Positions 2,503 through 11,649 of a stretch of 64,000 nucleotides of DNA are shown here, one piece after another. The translations under genes were made by a program, and so were the position numbers. The DNA is from Buxus sempervirens (lineage: Eukaryota; Streptophyta; Magnoliopsida; Buxales; Buxaceae), in NCBI GenBank assembly GCA_947561395.2, contig OX387187.1, forward strand, positions 28,997,829-29,061,828. The letters run 5' to 3'. The number at the start of each line of letters is the position of its first letter. Position 1 is the stretch's first letter. Below the pieces are notes generated by a model. It made no database searches, had not been told where the DNA came from, and saw only the letters and a list, made by a program, of their open reading frames with translations.

Positions 2503-3500
2503 GAACAGTATAGTATTAGATCGCGATGAAAAGAAAGGTTGAGATGCACATATTCAAGCAATGGAAGAAGGAGAAAGGAAATATAACAAAAATAAAATAA
2601 ATTTGAAAAGATACACCCCACGTGAAGTCAGATTGGGCCTAAATAAAGGTCTCAATGTAGTGCAATGAATCTAGTGGAGGGAATAAATTTTTTAGTCTTC
2701 TTTTGACAAAAAGAACACTTATCAAATATAGTCATATTACAAGGAGATTTAATTTCCTTCATTTCAAAAGGATATCTTCTTTCTAGATCACCTTTTCAAT
2801 GATTATTAGGCATACAACATATTGCATTTTAGTCAACTACTTTCAGTGAGTTGAGCACTATCTCATTGAAAGATTTGCTTCATTTTTATATTAAAATTTT
2901 CAATATCAATATTCTTTGCTTGAGTTAAAAAACATTTTCTCAGACTTAAAGAAAAAGACCTAAGTACAACAACTATTTCCATTTTCTAACCAAAATAATA
3001 TATTTATTAAATTCGATTATCAGTTTTATTAAATAGTAAGGCATAAAAATAAAAGTATAAATACCTAAAACCATAAACTACTAACCAAAGCATATATGAA
3101 CCACTTTAAGTGTTTGTTTATTTCCACGTATCTAAGATACATTACTTAAATTTTCTATTTCAAACGTGTCTATCTATTTAGAGTTCGAATTTAGTAAAAT
3201 AAACCTCAAGAAAAAAGGAAACGTATAATCCATGAAGAAGATGACAAGAGTCGTCTTCTTCAACGTATAATCCATCCTAAATGAAATCTTCAAAGCATGA
3301 AATAAATTTTAAAAGATACACCCCACATACCTTGGACGAACGCAAAAATGCCCTTGATCCAATCCCAAGCACAAATTCAAAAATTCCTGACGAAATCACT
3401 GCCAATAGTGAAAGGGGTGGCGGGGGCGGCGGTTTGAAGGTTGCAATAGGAGAATAGAAGGGCGCGCGCAAGTATTTAGGGTTCGTGGTTTTTTTGAAAT
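2503..3500. other. AT-rich intron or leader of the transposon gene
   Basis: No other gene seen. The phrase AGATACACCCCAC occurs twice (about 2609 and 3315), once next to the putative leader-exon donor, so this stretch may be a 5' intron containing an internal duplication. Confidence 0.35.
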
Positions 3501-3506
3501 TTGCGC

Positions 3507-3780
3507 CTTGACGCTCGAGCGGGAAGAAAACGCGTAGAACGCGTCACGCTCGGCTTTTTTGAGTTTTTTTAAAATTTGCCTTGACGCTCGAGCGGTCGAA
3601 AACCACGCAGAACGCGTCACGCTCGGGTTTTCTGAGTTTTTTACCTTTTTCCTTGACGCTCGAGCGGGTGAAAAACGCGCAGAACGCGTCACGCTCGGTT
3701 TGCCTGTGTATCTGAAATTTGCGCTTGACGCTCGAGCGGGCGTAAAGCGTTCCAAAATCGTCACCCTTAGTATTTTTTTC
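3507..3780. repeat. Four-copy GC-rich 72-bp tandem repeat
   Basis: CTTGACGCTCGAGCGG starts at 3507, 3580, 3652 and 3724, giving periods of 73, 72 and 72 bp. Each copy centres on the perfect palindrome CGCTCGAGCG. The first three also carry a second box, AACGCGTCACGCTCGG, about 20 bases later; in the fourth copy this box has decayed. The block is far more GC-rich than its flanks and lies just upstream of the transposon gene on the minus strand, where a promoter or terminal region would be expected. Confidence 0.85.
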
Positions 3781-3794
3781 TCATCTTTTACGAA

Positions 3795-5098
3795 TTGTAA
3801 GTGGGTAGGTTGGACTTGTAAGTGGGGTAGGTTGGACTTGTAAGTAAGGTAGGTTGGACTTGTAAGTAGAGTGGGGTAGGTTGGACTTGTAAGTAAGGTA
3901 GGTTGGACTTGTAAGTAGGGTAGGTTGGACTTCTAAGGTAGGTTGGACTTGTAAGTAGGGTTCGTTGGACTTGTAAGTGGGGTAGGTTGGACTTGTAAAT
4001 AGGCTAGATTGGACTTGTAAGTAGGGTAGGGTAGGTTGGACTTGTAAGTAGGGTTCGTTGGACTTATAAGTGGGGTAGGTTGGACTTGTAAATAGGGTAC
4101 GTTGGACTTGTAAGTGGGGTAGGTTGGACTTGTAAGTGGAGTAAGTTAGACTTGTAAATAGGCTAGGTTGGACTTGTAAGTAGGGTAGGGTAGGTTGGAC
4201 TTGTAAGTAGGGTTCCTTGGACTTGTAAGTGGGGTAGGTTGGACTTGTAAATATGGTAGGTTGGACTTGTAAGTGGGGTAGGTTGGACTTGTAAATAGGG
4301 TTGGTTGGACTTGTAAGTGGGGTTGGTTGGACTTGTAAATAGGGTACGTTGGACTTGTAAGTGGGGTAGGTTGGACTTGTAAGTGGGGTAAGTTGGACTT
4401 GTAAATAGGCTAGGTTGGACTTGTAAGTAGGGTAGGGTAGGTTGGACTTGTAAGTAGAGTTCGTTGGACTTGTAAGTGGGGTAGGTTGGACTTGTAAATA
4501 GGGTAGGTTGGACTTGTAAGTGGGGTAGATTGGACTTGTAAATAGGCTAAGTTGGACTTGTAAGTAGGCATGGTTGGACTTGTAAGTAGGGTAGGTTGGA
4601 CTTGTAAGTGGGGTAGGTTGGACTTGTAAGTGGGGTAGGTTGGAGTTGTAAATAGGGTAGGTTGGACTTGTAAGTAGGGTTCGTTGGACTTGTAAGTGAG
4701 ATAGGTTGGACTTGTAAGTGAGGTAGGTTGGACTTGTAAATAGGGTAGGTTGGACTTGTAAGTAGGGTTCGTTGGACTTGTAAGTGGGGTAGGTTGGACT
4801 TGTAAATAGGCTAGGTTGGACTTGTAAGTAGGCCTGGTTGGACTTGTAAGTAGGGTTTGTTAGACTTGTAAGTGGGGTAGGTTGGACTTGTAAATAGGGT
4901 AGGTTGGACTTGTAAGTGGGGTAGGTTGGACTTGTAAATAGGGTAGGTTGGACTTGTAAGTAGGGTTCGTTGGACTTGTAAGTGAGGTAGGTTGGACTTG
5001 TAAATAGGGTAGGTTGGACTTGTAAGTGGGGTAGGTTGGACTTGTAAGTAGGCATGGTTGGACTTGTAAGTAGGGTTTGTTGGACTTGTGGGACTTGT
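3795..5098. repeat. 22-bp minisatellite array of about 1.3 kb
   Basis: Tandem units built on TAGGTTGGACTTGTAAG plus a variable linker (TGGGG, TAGGG, or AATAGG-type) repeat every 22 bp, with occasional 5-bp linker duplications (GTAGG). A 440-codon minus-strand frame (3781-5103) spans the array. It has a 22-residue period because three 22-bp units equal 66 bp. The minus-strand unit has no stop codon in any of its three phases, so this open frame is a by-product of the repeat and I do not call it a gene. Confidence 0.93.
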
Positions 5099-6589
5099 AA
5101 CATGACAGTGCTTCATCCTGTTCTCACTACAATGGTGGTGTTGCTTCGTAATGATAATTTGGATTACCAGAAAATTATATAGGAAAAAAATGGGGATATA
5201 ATGAAAATTATATAACCTAAAATTATGTACAAATATTGTAATTTTACAATTGTTTTCCTCTCACAGATAGAGACCGAAATTTACAACCATCTTCACTCGT
5301 TAGCAAAATAAATTTACAAACAATTTAATGTACAAGTTTTCTATACACAATCTTCCGTCCTACTTGGATATTTAAGACGTCCTTCAGCTTCTTCACCTTG
5401 CTATCGAGCCAGGAATGCTGGAGTTGTGAATCATACCTATAAACAATGCAATCATAAGTTTATGTATGCACCTGAATGTTATTAGTTTCAAATCACCTTG
5501 TTATTGAACATGTGACAGGTACGTCTTACCTCTTCGGCTTCTTCACCTTCACTAGTCTCCGCCTCAGTTGTGTTTGCTGCCTTAGACAGAACTATGTCCC
5601 GCACTTGGTTAGAAGGGTGCTTAACGAGGTCAATAAGGAACTTATCCCTAAAATGTGCCATATAACTCTGAATTCATAGAAGATGTACTTGTAAGACCCT
5701 GAATTTTGTGAGTATTTATTTATTTATTTAGTTATTTATTCTGATGTATAAACTGTGTTTATCAGGTTATTTTGTGGTTTGAGGGTTTAGCCCATACTCA
5801 TATGTACAGGCGTTATATAGCCATTTTTCCGAAAAATCGTAGTATTATCATTGGTATTATTAAGGTGTAGTTATGTGATTATTAACGCGAATAGATGCTG
5901 AACATGTAGTATCTTCGGTGGGCGAGCATGCATAGGATCAAGGGGTTAAAAGGGTTGATCCACCGGCGTATACATCTCGCAAGGTAAGTGTTAAATGAGA
6001 AAATAAGGGAAAGTAGGGTTTTTAGTTTTAAACGAAATACGCGTATACTTACGGAAACATTTTCGTTAAGTCTGGAGATCAGGCGAACTCGCAATTTCGG
6101 CTGGAGTGGCGACTAGGGCTTCTGTTCGTGAAGAACCATAAATCGCAAGTGCTGGAAGAAGGAGTTCGGAGCTGAAATTCATTGGGTTATTTCTCTCTGC
6201 TCGAGAAGATTAGTTTCGGTAGACTTTTCATTCGCGTGCGTGGCCGGAGAAGTGATCGGCCGAGGTTTTTACCATTCGAGAATAAGCACAGTCAGGTGAG
6301 TAGCACTGATTTACAACTGGGGTTTTGTGTTTTATGTTTTCTCGAGCTTATTCTGATGCATGGTTTGTATATTAAGTGATAGTATGATGTTTTCTGGTTT
6401 TCGGAAAGTTAGATGAACAGAGTCTCCGGATTGAAATTATAATTGAAAATGAAAGTGTTTAGATTAATTTCAAATATGGTTGGGAAGTCTTCTGGGAGTA
6501 TTAGGAGTGTCCTGGAGTAGTCACAGACCTTCACAAACCGGCCAGTCATGTAGATCTCAAAATAACAGAGAAATGAAAACCACAGGGGG

Positions 6590-6850
6590 TATCCGCTCAC
6601 CTCGCGCTCACCGGCGTTCACCTCGGAGGTAGGCGCCCCGTTAATAACGACCTACCACCGATCCCGCGCCCACCTCGTGCGAAGTAGAAAACGAGGCGCC
6701 CATCTCGCGCGAATCTCGCGCCCACCTCACGCCCATCTCGCGCTCATCTCGCGCTCACCTAGCGTCGGGTGAGCGGCAGGTCGATTTTGCCCTTTTTCTT
6801 CACCGCCGACCGGCGCTCACCTCGCGCCCACCTCAATAGGTGAGCGGCAG
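6590..6850. repeat. GC-rich degenerate minisatellite inside the solo LTR
   Basis: Short units related to CTCGCGCCCAC and CTCGCGCTCAC recur about every 10-13 bases, and GGTGAGCGGCAG occurs twice (about 6768 and 6839). The block is strikingly richer in G+C and CpG than the rest of the LTR. Confidence 0.7.
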
Positions 6851-7455
6851 ACCTATTTTGCTTACCGAAATGGAATTTCTGATTTGACCAAGAGTATTTG
6901 CATTACTTAGGGGTTAAACCACTTCACTATTCACTTGGTTAGGAACCTGGGAAACCATTTTGCCTATGAAATTAATAGAGGAAAAATTTGTGAACATCTT
7001 ATGAGTTTTAAGTTGAGTTTAAGTTACTTATGAGTATTGTGCCAGACACCAAACTAGTAAGAGTTACCAGTTATTTTTCCTTGTTCTATATACTGTTTTG
7101 ATTGAGAAGTTCTTGTATTTCTGGTTTCACTTGTTGGAAACTTTATACGTATTGAAAGGTTTTCTTTGGTATGAATGGATTGAGTTTTACTTTCATATGA
7201 CTTGTGTTATGGAAATGAGAAAATACTGAATGTACTTGAGGTACTGCTTGGTCCAGAGGGACAGGTGATGAATTGTGATGAGTTCTTACATGATGTGGAA
7301 TGAATGGTTTTGTTTTGATATTGAAATCGAGATTATACGATGTTTACTGTTTTGGTCTAGCTTGTCCTGGATCCAGATGTTTAAGCTTAGTAATGTGATG
7401 TTATTGTTGGTTGTTGGAATTGCATGGCCTTGTGGGTTGCCACGACCGGTGTAGA

Positions 7456-7583
7456 GCAGCCAGAAACCCTGAGTAGGCCTGGTTGTCAATGCAGAAACCC
7501 GGGGAGTAGGCCTGCATTGGATGACGAAACCCTGAGTAGGCTGTCATTTCAGAGTATCCGAAACCCTGAGTAGGCCGGAACTG
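7456..7583 (+). repeat. Four tandem hairpins with one conserved loop and covarying stems
   Basis: The loop AAACCCTGAGTAGGC occurs at 7464, 7527 and 7561, with a variant AAACCCGGGGAGTAGGC at 7495, spaced 31, 32 and 34 bases apart. Each loop is bounded by a different but complementary stem: GCAGCCAG/CTGGTTGT (7456-7463/7479-7486), TCAATGCA/TGCATTGG (7486-7493/7513-7520), GGATGAC/GTCATTT (7519-7525/7543-7549), and TCCG/CGGA extended past a bulge by GAGT/ACT (7554-7560/7576-7582). Several outer pairs are G-U in the plus-strand RNA. Neighbouring stems touch or overlap by one or two bases. Confidence 0.85.
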
Positions 7584-10500
7584 TGTACATGGAGGTGTGG
7601 AGTATCTACTTGGCATGTTTAATTTATCAACTAAACGATAGTCATGACATTGACCAATCGATGTGTTATTGTACTTAACTGAGATGTGATTTGTTTGATT
7701 TGAACTTGGGAAATTGATGTTGGTTGTTTAAGCGCATTGTAGTGTTGTCGATGCATAGTTCTAAAATGTGATTCAACTATTTCTGCATGCATGTGCTACT
7801 CGCTGAGATATTCGTATCTCACTATGTTGTTGTTCTATTTTTTCAGATACTCGTGGTGAGGCGATTACTGGGGTAGATCCTGCTGAGGCATATAGGGAGG
7901 AAGACTACTATTACCTTCCTTAGACTTGTAGGTTATCTGTTCCGAATTTGAGAACTTGAATTAATTGAGATGTATTAAAGAAATTGGGGATGAACCATAT
8001 GATTTCAGTTCAGTTTAAATGTTACAATTTTGCATAAATGGAAATGTGCACTCTGTTAGGTTATAGATGTATGATTATCCAGCGATCATAAATTGATTAA
8101 CGATCCTTGCCTAACCTCCGTGAGACGTGTTATATCTTTAATGAACAACACGGATCCGGGGCGTTACAGTACTTGTGTGTTACTAGCGACGTACTTCATA
8201 ACTATAATTATAAATAAACCATTTAAGTTATATGTGCACCTGATCAAATTCTTCAGACAAGGTGCTGCCATCCCACACCTCCATGTATTTCATCATGAGA
8301 ACACCACAATCAGACCTGACGGTATATAATCACATCACATCACTTGTAAGAAGCTAACATATGTATGAAGCAAAACAAAACGAGTGTCAAGCAAAACAAA
8401 CCTAACGGCTTACCCGTTGGTTTGGTGTAGGACCTTAACCCGCCGCAACTCCCACAGTAGAAGTGGAAATTGATCACCACCTCCGAAGTCACGTAAGATC
8501 TTATCCAACATCTGGATCTACAAGTGACGAACCATGGGTCAATATGCTAAGTGTTGTAAATGGTATGAGAAAATTTCATTAATAAAAAAATTACCTGCGT
8601 TTCAATTATGGATTGATGTCCCGCACGACGCCCCCCATCCATTGAGTCAAGCACATCCACTCTCCGCTCTTTTAGGTTTAAAACTAAAAGAAACCAATGA
8701 TTGCGCAGACACATGGGAACAAAAATCTACATACAAGTAAGACACCCTTATAAGTAAAGAACGTACTACAGACTGCTAAGTAAGTAAGGATACAAGCATA
8801 AAAAATCTGAAACTAATCATTTGTGAAGGTGGCACATTGAATCCCAAGGAACTTACAAGATTGCATGCAAGCACAGAATACCCTAGTCGCCCTGGATCGA
8901 AGTAAGGACGCAAGGATTCAGTGGAACCACGATCACTTTTCATCATCCACTCCTACATAATATATGAAAGGAAATTTTAGTCATTACTCTAGCCTTGAAC
9001 AATAACATTTGTATAATCATAACGACTAATAGTGCTATCACAAAAAGTGCTTACACAAATATATGTGGGACAATAATGTCGGCTAACTTTGCGGCTAGTC
9101 GACAATTGTTGGTTCTTCATAAGACATGCTCCAAAAGCATTGATAGCCTATAAAAAAATACCATGAGCGATGACATGCACAATTGAATAAACAATATATT
9201 ATTCACAAGATAAGCTTTGCATACCACACTATTAACATGTTTGTTGTCTAACAAACACGCCAATTCAGTTGCCGATGCAAAGATGGAATCAAATTTGAAT
9301 ATTATTTCACTGAAAAACACAAGCAGGAATTATTCACTACGAATTATAATACATAAATAACATTTACAAGTTAGTTTAGGAATATTATCTTACTCAGAAT
9401 GTTTGTTTCCGCGAATGTATTGTAGGATTGAGCTTGCTTCTGGGCCCAATCGAGGACGCAAGCGATGGCCAATAAATGGGGTGCGATAATGTTTCCCACG
9501 CGTCTTCTTGCGTGACCCTCTTCGAGGTTTGGTTACCTCGGTCCCGATGCTGCTTCGAGACGGAACTATCACCACCTCATCCTCTTGCATTTTATCTTTT
9601 TCTACCTCCACAACCACCGCCGTGTCGAGATCGGTGGTATGATCACCGCTCTCGTGGGTGCTATGATGGGAGGGTGCCATCCTTGCTTCATCAGGAACAT
9701 CAGGCATGGAACAGTCGGGAGTATCCATATGAGCAAGGCTCTCACATCGCATGTGGATATCGGAGGGGTCCACGCTTTCCCTTGACCTCACATGATTTAG
9801 CATCTCGGTATACGTGTCCAACATCCTCGTGAGATGACCTTGAATAACCTGGAATACACAACACCCAATCATAAAACATGCGGAGGTGTTCGTAATAAGA
9901 AAACTAATAAAAAATAAATAAATAAAACCCAATCTTACAGGATCTGGATCTCCACGAAATTGCCGAAGATCAATGAAATTTAATTCATGGGATTCGCCTG
10001 ATGCCTCATCTTCGACACAGCTGTCAACACGATGCTCAATCACCTACAATATTTAACGTGTATATTAGTCAGTACATAGAAATGTTGAATTATTTGCAAA
10101 ATTGACAACAAAACCTACAATAATCAGTTCAACTCAAATATATATATATATATGTATACCTTCCCATTTCCATATCCACCGAGCGCCATTTCATCTTTCT
10201 CCCTTTGGAAAAGCAATGCATCTGTCCACACTGCCATACGTGGAGTGGTAGGAGGTGTTGCTTGACCAACGATCATCCGATCGTAATACAAATACTAAGC
10301 AACGATCAAAATATCATTAGACGCACTATAATAATGATAAGCTAGGATAAAGAAGCTAATGCATCTTTTAAATACTATACATACCTGTAAAAATAATAAG
10401 CAGCCATTGACGGATTTCCGTTTCCCCTTTTGAAACTTGGCTACGTGATGTATCAATGTGTCTAAAAGGTACTTCCCCCAGTTGTAACCTCCTATCCTCT

Positions 10501-11649
10501 CTACATCGACCAACAAGGGAAGATAGGATGCACTCACATCAATCATTGAAGATGGACTTACTAAGGTCGTCAACGAATATAATACAAACGAACGGATCCA
10601 CTCATGATCGTTCTCTAGCTCTTCAAGCTCTTCTCGACATTCTCAATAGGGATGCTTCCATTGCGTACCCCGTAAAATCTATGCAACTCTGTCGTATCGG
10701 GGATTTCTGATTTAGATGTATCAACATCTATCCCCTCTATGGGTAACCCAATTATAGTCTTCACGTCGTGTGTGTCAAAGAAAATATTCTGGGACCCAAC
10801 TCTGATACATCTCTTCTTAGTATCTACATTCGGAAGAATCCAATGACAGAGTCGCCGATAAAGCTTCGTCGCGTGTAAATTCAGTAGACAGCGAAAGCCA
10901 CTATCTCTAAGGCACTGCTCCTGAGAATCCGTGAATGAAAGACCGTGCATAAACGTAATGAAACGTCCAGGTGAACAACGTGTCTTTATCTCAGCCTACA
11001 AAAAAGAAAGGTAAAACGAAATAATATATCAGTCTCAACTAATTATCCACAATAATTCCAATTATAGATAAGATATTTTACGAACTTGTTGTTTCTTTCG
11101 CGGCTCTTGCTGTGGGATAGCCCTCTTGTATTCGTCCCACTCAAGCCGTGATGCTCGCTTAAATTCTACTTTCTCAGCTTGATTCATCGACCTCCATGCT
11201 CCAGCAGCATCCGCAAATAACTAAAATGCAATAACTAAATAGATTAATTCATTTGCATAGGATTGACGAAGTGCAAAATAAATAAAATTAATGCTGTTCC
11301 TTAACCGGTACCATTGATAATGCCTACCTGCTGCTTCGTCGGGATTTGTTCACCTTCAATACGATTCTTCATTCTTTCGTTTACATAATATTCCCTGAAA
11401 GAACAAAAGGAAAATCATGGTCAATAATATATTCAGAATTACAAGGATGCAAAAGGAATTAAAATAACCGTCATCTTGACAACCATAACCAAACTTATAC
11501 AAAGAGAATGATCCAAAATATTGGATTGCTTCCATGCTTACTTCTACAATAAAACAAATAAATAAGTGAAGGAAACTTTACCTAAAGTGTAGCCAACTGT
11601 TGCGCGGTTGTTTTTGTCCTGTTAATGATGATCCAACAGTTTCCATTGT

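Follow-up and report, generated by a model that had tools for sequence, protein, structure and literature searches.

The question raised by this locus is whether four neighbouring hairpins in an LTR of Buxus sempervirens, which share a loop but not their stems, form an RNA structure maintained by selection and, if so, what might recognise it. They lie in the window, i.e. the whole stretch of 64,000 nucleotides that was analysed.

Four hairpins with a common loop in a solo LTR

The hairpins are located at 7457-7582 on the plus strand and share the loop AAACCC..GAGTAGGC, repeated at spacings of 31, 32 and 34 nt. The form GAAACCCTGAGTAGGC is present at 7463-7478, 7526-7541 and 7560-7575, and the variant GAAACCCGGGGAGTAGGC at 7494-7511. 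The AAACCCTGAGTAGGC loop is preceded by a G at 7463, 7526 and 7560, and the G at 7494 precedes the form that is longer by two bases. These are the features that an earlier note had described as four tandem hairpins with a constant loop, one variant of it, and a repeat of 31-34 bases. Hairpin 1 (7457-7485) pairs 7457-7463 with 7479-7485 (CAGCCAG/CTGGTTG, 7 bp, one G-U) around the loop 7464-7478. Hairpin 2 (7487-7519) pairs 7487-7494 with 7512-7519 (CAATGCAG/CTGCATTG, 8 bp) around the loop 7495-7511 (AAACCCGGGGAGTAGGC). Hairpin 3 (7520-7548) pairs 7520-7526 with 7542-7548 (GATGACG/TGTCATT, 7 bp, two G-U) around the loop 7527-7541. In hairpin 4 (7553-7582) the left arm consists of 7553-7555 and 7557-7560, the right arm of 7576-7582 and the loop of 7561-7575; four base pairs (TCCG/CGGA) are followed by a bulged A at 7556 and then by three more (AGT/ACT). 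Besides the sequence, hairpins 1 and 2 are documented by covariation in relatives; relatives of hairpin 3 have no double-changed pair, and hairpin 4 was read in the sequence.

The flanks of each loop match their own partners. The summed stem score of the own pairs is 44, and the best of the other 23 assignments of left to right arms scores 33. Random flanks from the same LTR give a mean of 10.7 (sd 5.7), and none of 20,000 draws reaches 44. Some single foreign pairings are fair, such as the left arm of hairpin 2 with the right arm of hairpin 3, which scores 10 and equals the own pair of hairpin 3. The proposal that own flanks pair over 7-9 bp is borne out, although hairpin 4, with its bulge, is weaker than proposed. 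Could this be chance pairing around a duplicated 16-mer? The fold of the region as a whole, being unexceptional, is in line with such an origin: a 181-nt region has no extra stability compared with dinucleotide shuffles (z -0.46; 67 of 200 shuffles fold as well), and all four hairpins appear in its centroid but not in its minimum free energy structure. However, the random draws, together with the covariation and the second family described below, refute chance pairing, to which we attach practically no probability. Surveys that score stability may miss such arrays, this one scoring like shuffled sequence. A search of 7300-7800 against Rfam gave three matches, all far under the gathering scores, and no match to a ribozyme.

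As had been claimed, the array is inside an LTR. This LTR (TGTAAGACCC...GGGGCGTTACA; 5690-8168, plus strand) was read directly; it is 2,479 nt long, has the ends TGTAAG..TTACA and is bordered by a GTACT target-site duplication at 5685-5689 and 8169-8173. It is a solo LTR, since a BLAST comparison of 6801-8200 with the window revealed no further LTR there. The array occupies LTR positions 1768-1893. Within the otherwise AT-rich LTR, GC-rich short repeats with a unit near GCGCCCATCTC are present at 6590-6840. Searching the host genome (676.5 Mb, 247 contigs) for the array gave 1,320 first-look places, the best 40 of which were scored and are all 99-100% identical. Some of the places are paired about 7.35 kb apart on one strand, as expected of the two LTRs of an element; L011 and L012 are both LTRs of one such pair and are 97% identical to the window.

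These full-length relatives carry gag and pol between their LTRs and assign the family to the Ty3/gypsy chromoviruses. In a single element, L010, we found a gag with a zinc knuckle, a protease, a reverse transcriptase (RT), an RNase H and an integrase in chromovirus order, followed by the weak chromodomain of the integrase. Retrotrans_gag, RVP_2, RVT_1, RNase H, Integrase_H2C2 and SH3_Tf2-1 exceeded their cut-offs; rve, at 30.1 bits, fell short of its cut-off of 32.6, and Chromo, at 22.9 bits, of its cut-off of 25.1. The LTR in L010 is followed by TGGTATCAGAG, which resembles a primer binding site (PBS), and a purine tract precedes the LTR in L011. Together with the TG..CA ends and the target duplication, these are the borders of a chromovirus. 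The length and architecture of the LTR suggest to us, as an assumption, membership of the Tekay/Del clade. The array has the same orientation as gag-pol in L010.

Covariation among relatives and in a distant family

Relatives of the array were taken from the genome-search sets and from a search with the 17-letter pattern GAAACCCNGAGTAGGYR. At a position that must be a pyrimidine for the closing pair to form, this pattern has a purine, and it therefore selects against structure in the matched unit. It was found at 68 places in the genome, versus none with a reversed control; 30 of the 68 were read and comprise several diverged subfamilies. Loci L046-L075 were picked in this manner, by a purine after one loop, i.e. 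against an intact closing pair, and a two-unit pattern with a purine after each loop had no match in the genome. Before selection there were 82 clusters, 49 of them distinct and some due to chance, from which 33 rows were retained; 26 of these are first arrays, six are downstream arrays and one is L059. Manual addition or delimitation was used for L052, L066, L060, L067 and all six downstream arrays. Excluded were six downstream (B) arrays lacking the third loop, the recombined or deleted L039, L047, L049, L064, L068 and L073, the cut-off L034, the degenerate L055, L062, L070 and L072, the upstream array of L075, and exact duplicates. Model R1, run on 12 sources, returned 54 matches, of which 53 are known array units and one is at chance level.

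When hairpins are compared with each other, using three window units and two L006 units (five in all), 94% of 50 cells are paired and the covariation score is 0.63, versus at most 0.14 when slid. In the 33 array copies, 94.8% of 863 stem cells are paired (91.3% shuffled, 21-40% slid) and 33 cells are double-changed (12.0 shuffled, at most 4 slid); none of 500 column shuffles reached the observed percentage paired, number of double-changed cells or covariation score. Two further measures over the 33 rows were not significant, namely the number of pairs with a double change (5 versus 4.2, reached by 207 of 500 shuffles) and the number of pair types (23 versus 20.4, reached by 42 of 500). The column pair 52-72 of hairpin 2 illustrates the changes, with AU in 13 rows, CG in 13, UG in 5, UA in 1 and one row unpaired, as does the pair 19-38 of hairpin 1, with AU in 21, CG in 7, UG in 2, UA in 1 and two unpaired. 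The closing region of hairpin 2 is CAG/CTG, CTG/CAG or CCG/CGG among the copies, and hairpin 1 has CCAG/CTGG or CACCG/CGGTG; in 7 of the 33 rows an extra A in one arm of hairpin 1 is matched by an extra U in the other. Hairpin 3 is nearly invariant among relatives and the inner CC/GG pairs are invariant, and they say little on covariation because they hardly or never vary.

In a tree-aware null, the substitutions of each branch were redistributed over columns of the same source base, using a FastTree tree of the array itself; this single tree is an approximation because blocks of the array seem to recombine between families. The 33 double-changed cells compare with 5.7 expected, a value of 33 being reached in none of 1,000 nulls. 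Double changes on the same branch number 7 (mean 1.3, largest 6, none of 1,000 reaching 7), although in three of the seven CG became UA, a change that a pair of C-to-T decays could equally explain. The covariation score (0.162 versus 0.103) was reached in 3 of 1,000 nulls and the percentage paired (94.8 versus 86.4) in 1 of 1,000. Neither outcome named beforehand as refuting was thus obtained in these 33 copies: the arms change in concert and stay complementary, and covariation exceeds the phylogenetic background in a test other than the proposed R-scape.

The G-U pairs, which had been pointed out as working only in RNA, are partly a feature of the family. The one in hairpin 1 is fixed in 30 of 33 rows and the outer one of hairpin 3 in 32 of 33, and a fixed G-U is present in all 12 copies of the second family described below. 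In contrast, the innermost G-U of hairpin 3 is a minority state: 29 of 33 units have CGTC on the loop side and 4 have TGTC, the window copy included, which looks like CpG decay. The fixed pairs favour, if weakly as the stems were defined in the sense strand, sense RNA as the folded strand.

Covariation can also arise without selection, when one arm is overwritten by a copy of the other through quasi-palindrome correction or template switching. Both arms are then altered in one event, which matches the double changes on single branches, and the inverted repeats of the LTR could invite such correction. Correction would nevertheless convert the fixed G-U to Watson-Crick pairs, and it leaves the constant loop and the extra conservation of the array unexplained. 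In addition, five loci (L039, L047, L064, L068 and L073) have a unit whose left arm belongs to one hairpin and whose right arm belongs to the following one. This is the trace expected of exchange between identical loops, and since these units keep unmatched arms, the matching of arms is no automatic by-product. We regard a mutational artefact of this type as quite improbable.

A subfamily (L005, L006, L013, L019, L026, L028, L029 and L034-L045) has a second array, array B, about 190 nt 3' of the first. In 8 copies of array B the third hairpin has lost its loop, the arms being kept with two bases left between them. The fourth hairpin of array B is AATATCCG/CGGATATA, versus AGTATCCG/CGGAACT in the first array; there are indels in both arms, yet each forms 7 bp. 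In 8 copies that were not chosen by array B, this array shows no clear extra conservation (94.9-98.9% versus 89.9-100% elsewhere).

A distant family has the same loop on other stems. L050 contains the loop AAACCCAGAGTAGGY twice, with stems unlike those of the window, and its LTR aligns with the window LTR only at the array, the acceptor region discussed below and the LTR end. A search for this second family gave 410 first-look places, 40 of which were scored, at 86-100%; twelve loci from these 40 were read, and the resulting set of 12 copies consists of L050 and 11 of them, the twelfth (L076) being L050 itself. In L078 the first hairpin is GCGAAG-u-CCG/CGGCUUCGU (9 bp) and the second GGUGACCG/CGGU-u-CAUC (8 bp, 10 in the fold). 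Within the 12 copies 92.2% of 204 cells are paired, versus 91.9% when shuffled (226 of 500 shuffles), and the other measures are likewise not above shuffling, so that these copies add no covariation. The evidence from this family is the difference between families, i.e. the same loop on unrelated but paired stems. With the covariation in the first family, it supports the view that stems which diverge and stay complementary reflect selection on structure. Conserved stem-loops whose pairing is kept by covariation, as looked for in a packaging signal, are present here except inside the second family. That the array consists of paired, covarying hairpins is, taken by itself, highly probable.

The array as a putative leader RNA element

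The window LTR was compared by BLAST with the 30 pattern loci. The bins 1701-1800, 1801-1900 and 1901-2000 aligned in 27, 28 and 21 of them and bin 2101-2200 in 24, versus 0-12 for bins 1-1700, 8 for bin 2001-2100 and 5 to 8 for the last three bins; selection by one 17-mer within the array gives some advantage to the array bins, though none to bin 2101-2200, and the loci extend about 1,500 nt on each side, the first LTR bins lying beyond their reach. We relied on this comparison instead of a conservation profile of 13 copies, which is biased as these had been picked by the array. Within the LTR, the array and the region of the acceptor stand out as conserved islands and are the parts most often aligned between families. 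The mosaic LTR of L026, with 98% identity to the window family over 1124-1969 and 75% upstream, suggests that the array module is exchanged between families by recombination.

Signals for transcription and splicing were counted in 20 copies, which had been chosen by the array. A candidate TATA box (TATATA, LTR position 125; 5814-5819, plus strand) is kept in 19 of the 20 aligned copies, L008 not being covered, and the array is about 1.6 kb 3' of it. Transcripts probably include the array because this box is kept; another TATATA nearer the array, at LTR 1398, would give the same. A weak candidate splice donor (CAAG/GTAAGT, cut at the slash; LTR position 295; 5984-5989, plus strand) reads GGTAAGT in 7 of 20 copies and GGTAAAT in 3, the other 10 being different or unaligned. 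The candidate acceptor (TTTTTTCAG, LTR 2157; 7838-7846, plus strand) has CAG/AT in 19 of 20 copies, L020 being unaligned. Just 5' of its polypyrimidine tract is a separate conserved hairpin, TGAGATA-TTCG-TATCTCA (7804-7821, plus strand), which is varied yet paired in several relatives, e.g. GGGACTTTAAGTCTC in L031 and TGAGATTTTTATCTCA in L050.

We propose that the row of hairpins is a cis-acting element of the sense-strand RNA of a plant chromovirus. Each hairpin would offer the same loop of 15-17 nt, AAACCC n GAGTAGGY, which a CC/GG mini-helix may pinch, and its stem would be free in sequence as long as pairing is kept. Being 3' of the conserved TATA-like box, the array should fall in the genomic RNA leader. 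Adjacent repeats in which the loop is constant and the stem free would suit several copies of one RNA-binding protein. This protein could most likely be the Gag of the element itself, which has a CCHC zinc knuckle and would choose the genomic RNA for the particle. A sense-RNA array of protein-binding sites in the leader, most likely a putative Gag packaging signal, is the reading that we tentatively adopt, giving it slightly less than an even chance. Retroviral packaging stem-loops in the RNA leader have similar loops, which a multimeric Gag or coat protein recognises, and their stems are less constrained than the loops. The present array, known here from sequence, resembles these multi-site signals in having several stem-loops, like loops, a presumed leader position and freer stems; it differs in its larger conserved loop and in being far from the PBS and gag, the usual retroviral signal being nearer the PBS and the start of gag. 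We count against this reading the lack of extra stability, the two null measures, and the null results of the second family and of array B.

The main rival to Gag packaging is control of export or splicing. Here the same loops would be read by a host RNA-binding protein, for export of unspliced RNA or to restrain splicing or translation, the array being in a putative intron from LTR position about 295 to 2157. The conserved acceptor with its own hairpin, about 260 nt 3' of the array and in a bin that aligns in 24 of 30 loci, speaks for such a role. Several identical RNA sites also fit an element of the constitutive-export type, as in retroviruses. The constitutive transport element likewise repeats identical RNA loop motifs, but as internal loops of one long hairpin, unlike the separate tandem hairpins of the array. 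Against a host reader is the candidate donor, present in 7 of 20 copies with 3 near-matches, and we consider this explanation possible but rather unlikely.

Chromoviruses account for a large fraction of many plant genomes, and we know of no well-mapped packaging, dimerisation or export element in their genomic RNA. If the array, read as a packaging or export signal, proves to be one, it would to our knowledge be the first defined for a plant Ty3/gypsy lineage. It would also provide a code that can be found by pattern, as several AAACCC n GAGTAGGY loops on complementary arms, and the array gives a named loop and stem pairs to test. Whether plant chromovirus LTRs regularly contain a conserved multivalent RNA recognition element of this kind, with a constant loop and with stems that are free in sequence yet paired, appears to us an evenly balanced question.

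Comparison with described LTR structures

According to the passages of PMC2829016 drawn on here, the LTRs of Sirevirus (Ty1/copia) contain repeated motifs that are palindromic, keep their arms constant and lie upstream of the promoter. These RM boxes are similar to our array as clustered inverted repeats that can form hairpins in a plant LTR and are conserved amid a diverging element (PMC2829016, in the same passages). However, in these boxes the arms are what is repeated, flanking short spacers and having a CGG-CCG core in all but one, whereas here the loop is repeated and the arms covary; they are upstream of the promoter (PMC2829016, as far as drawn on), and the array is at LTR 1768-1893, with TATATA at LTR 125 and 1398. 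The domains of L010 are Ty3/gypsy, and the arms differ between hairpins and covary. In both respects the array differs from the RM boxes.

Alternatively, the array could act as DNA, i.e. as cis-regulatory repeats for a transcription factor, or as silencing hairpins that feed small RNAs. The cis-regions of LTRs are often arrays of repeats, sometimes palindromic (parts of PMC10760457 and PMC2829016), and the Sirevirus palindromes attract small RNAs, being tied to them in maize (PMC10760457, in part). Yet constancy here is in the loop and variation in the arms, opposite to the Sirevirus boxes, fixed G-U pairs would be meaningless in DNA, and the array is 3' of the conserved TATA-like box, although the TATATA at LTR 1398 is nearer. 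We judge a DNA-level or silencing role unlikely, though less so than a mutational artefact. According to the portion of PMC10760457 consulted, a maize survey found Ty3 elements to be generally without an obvious structure peak.

Retrozymes with hammerhead ribozymes (PMC4918200, in part) are another case of structured RNA in LTR-type repeats of plants; the region 7300-7800, as stated above, matched no Rfam ribozyme. In the open-licence PMC literature, mostly judged by titles and the beginnings of abstracts, we recognised no tandem covarying LTR hairpins, and the loop sequence as text had no match there. The consulted part of PMC3601003, on LTR structure, contains no such element. In the viral collection the exact loop had one match, L001, which lacks an array and was judged to be due to chance; the two-loop pattern had none, and none of the 4 pattern matches to an RT piece was a relative.

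Other repeats are present in the window. A 22-bp unit (TTGTAAGTAGGGTAGGTTGGAC) is repeated in tandem about 58 times at 3795-5089, where several frames are open, and this stretch is adjoined by a 72-bp tandem repeat at 3488-3746. On the other side of the LTR, at 9390-10995, are open frames on the minus strand that look to us like a gene of the transposase or plant-mobile-domain type.
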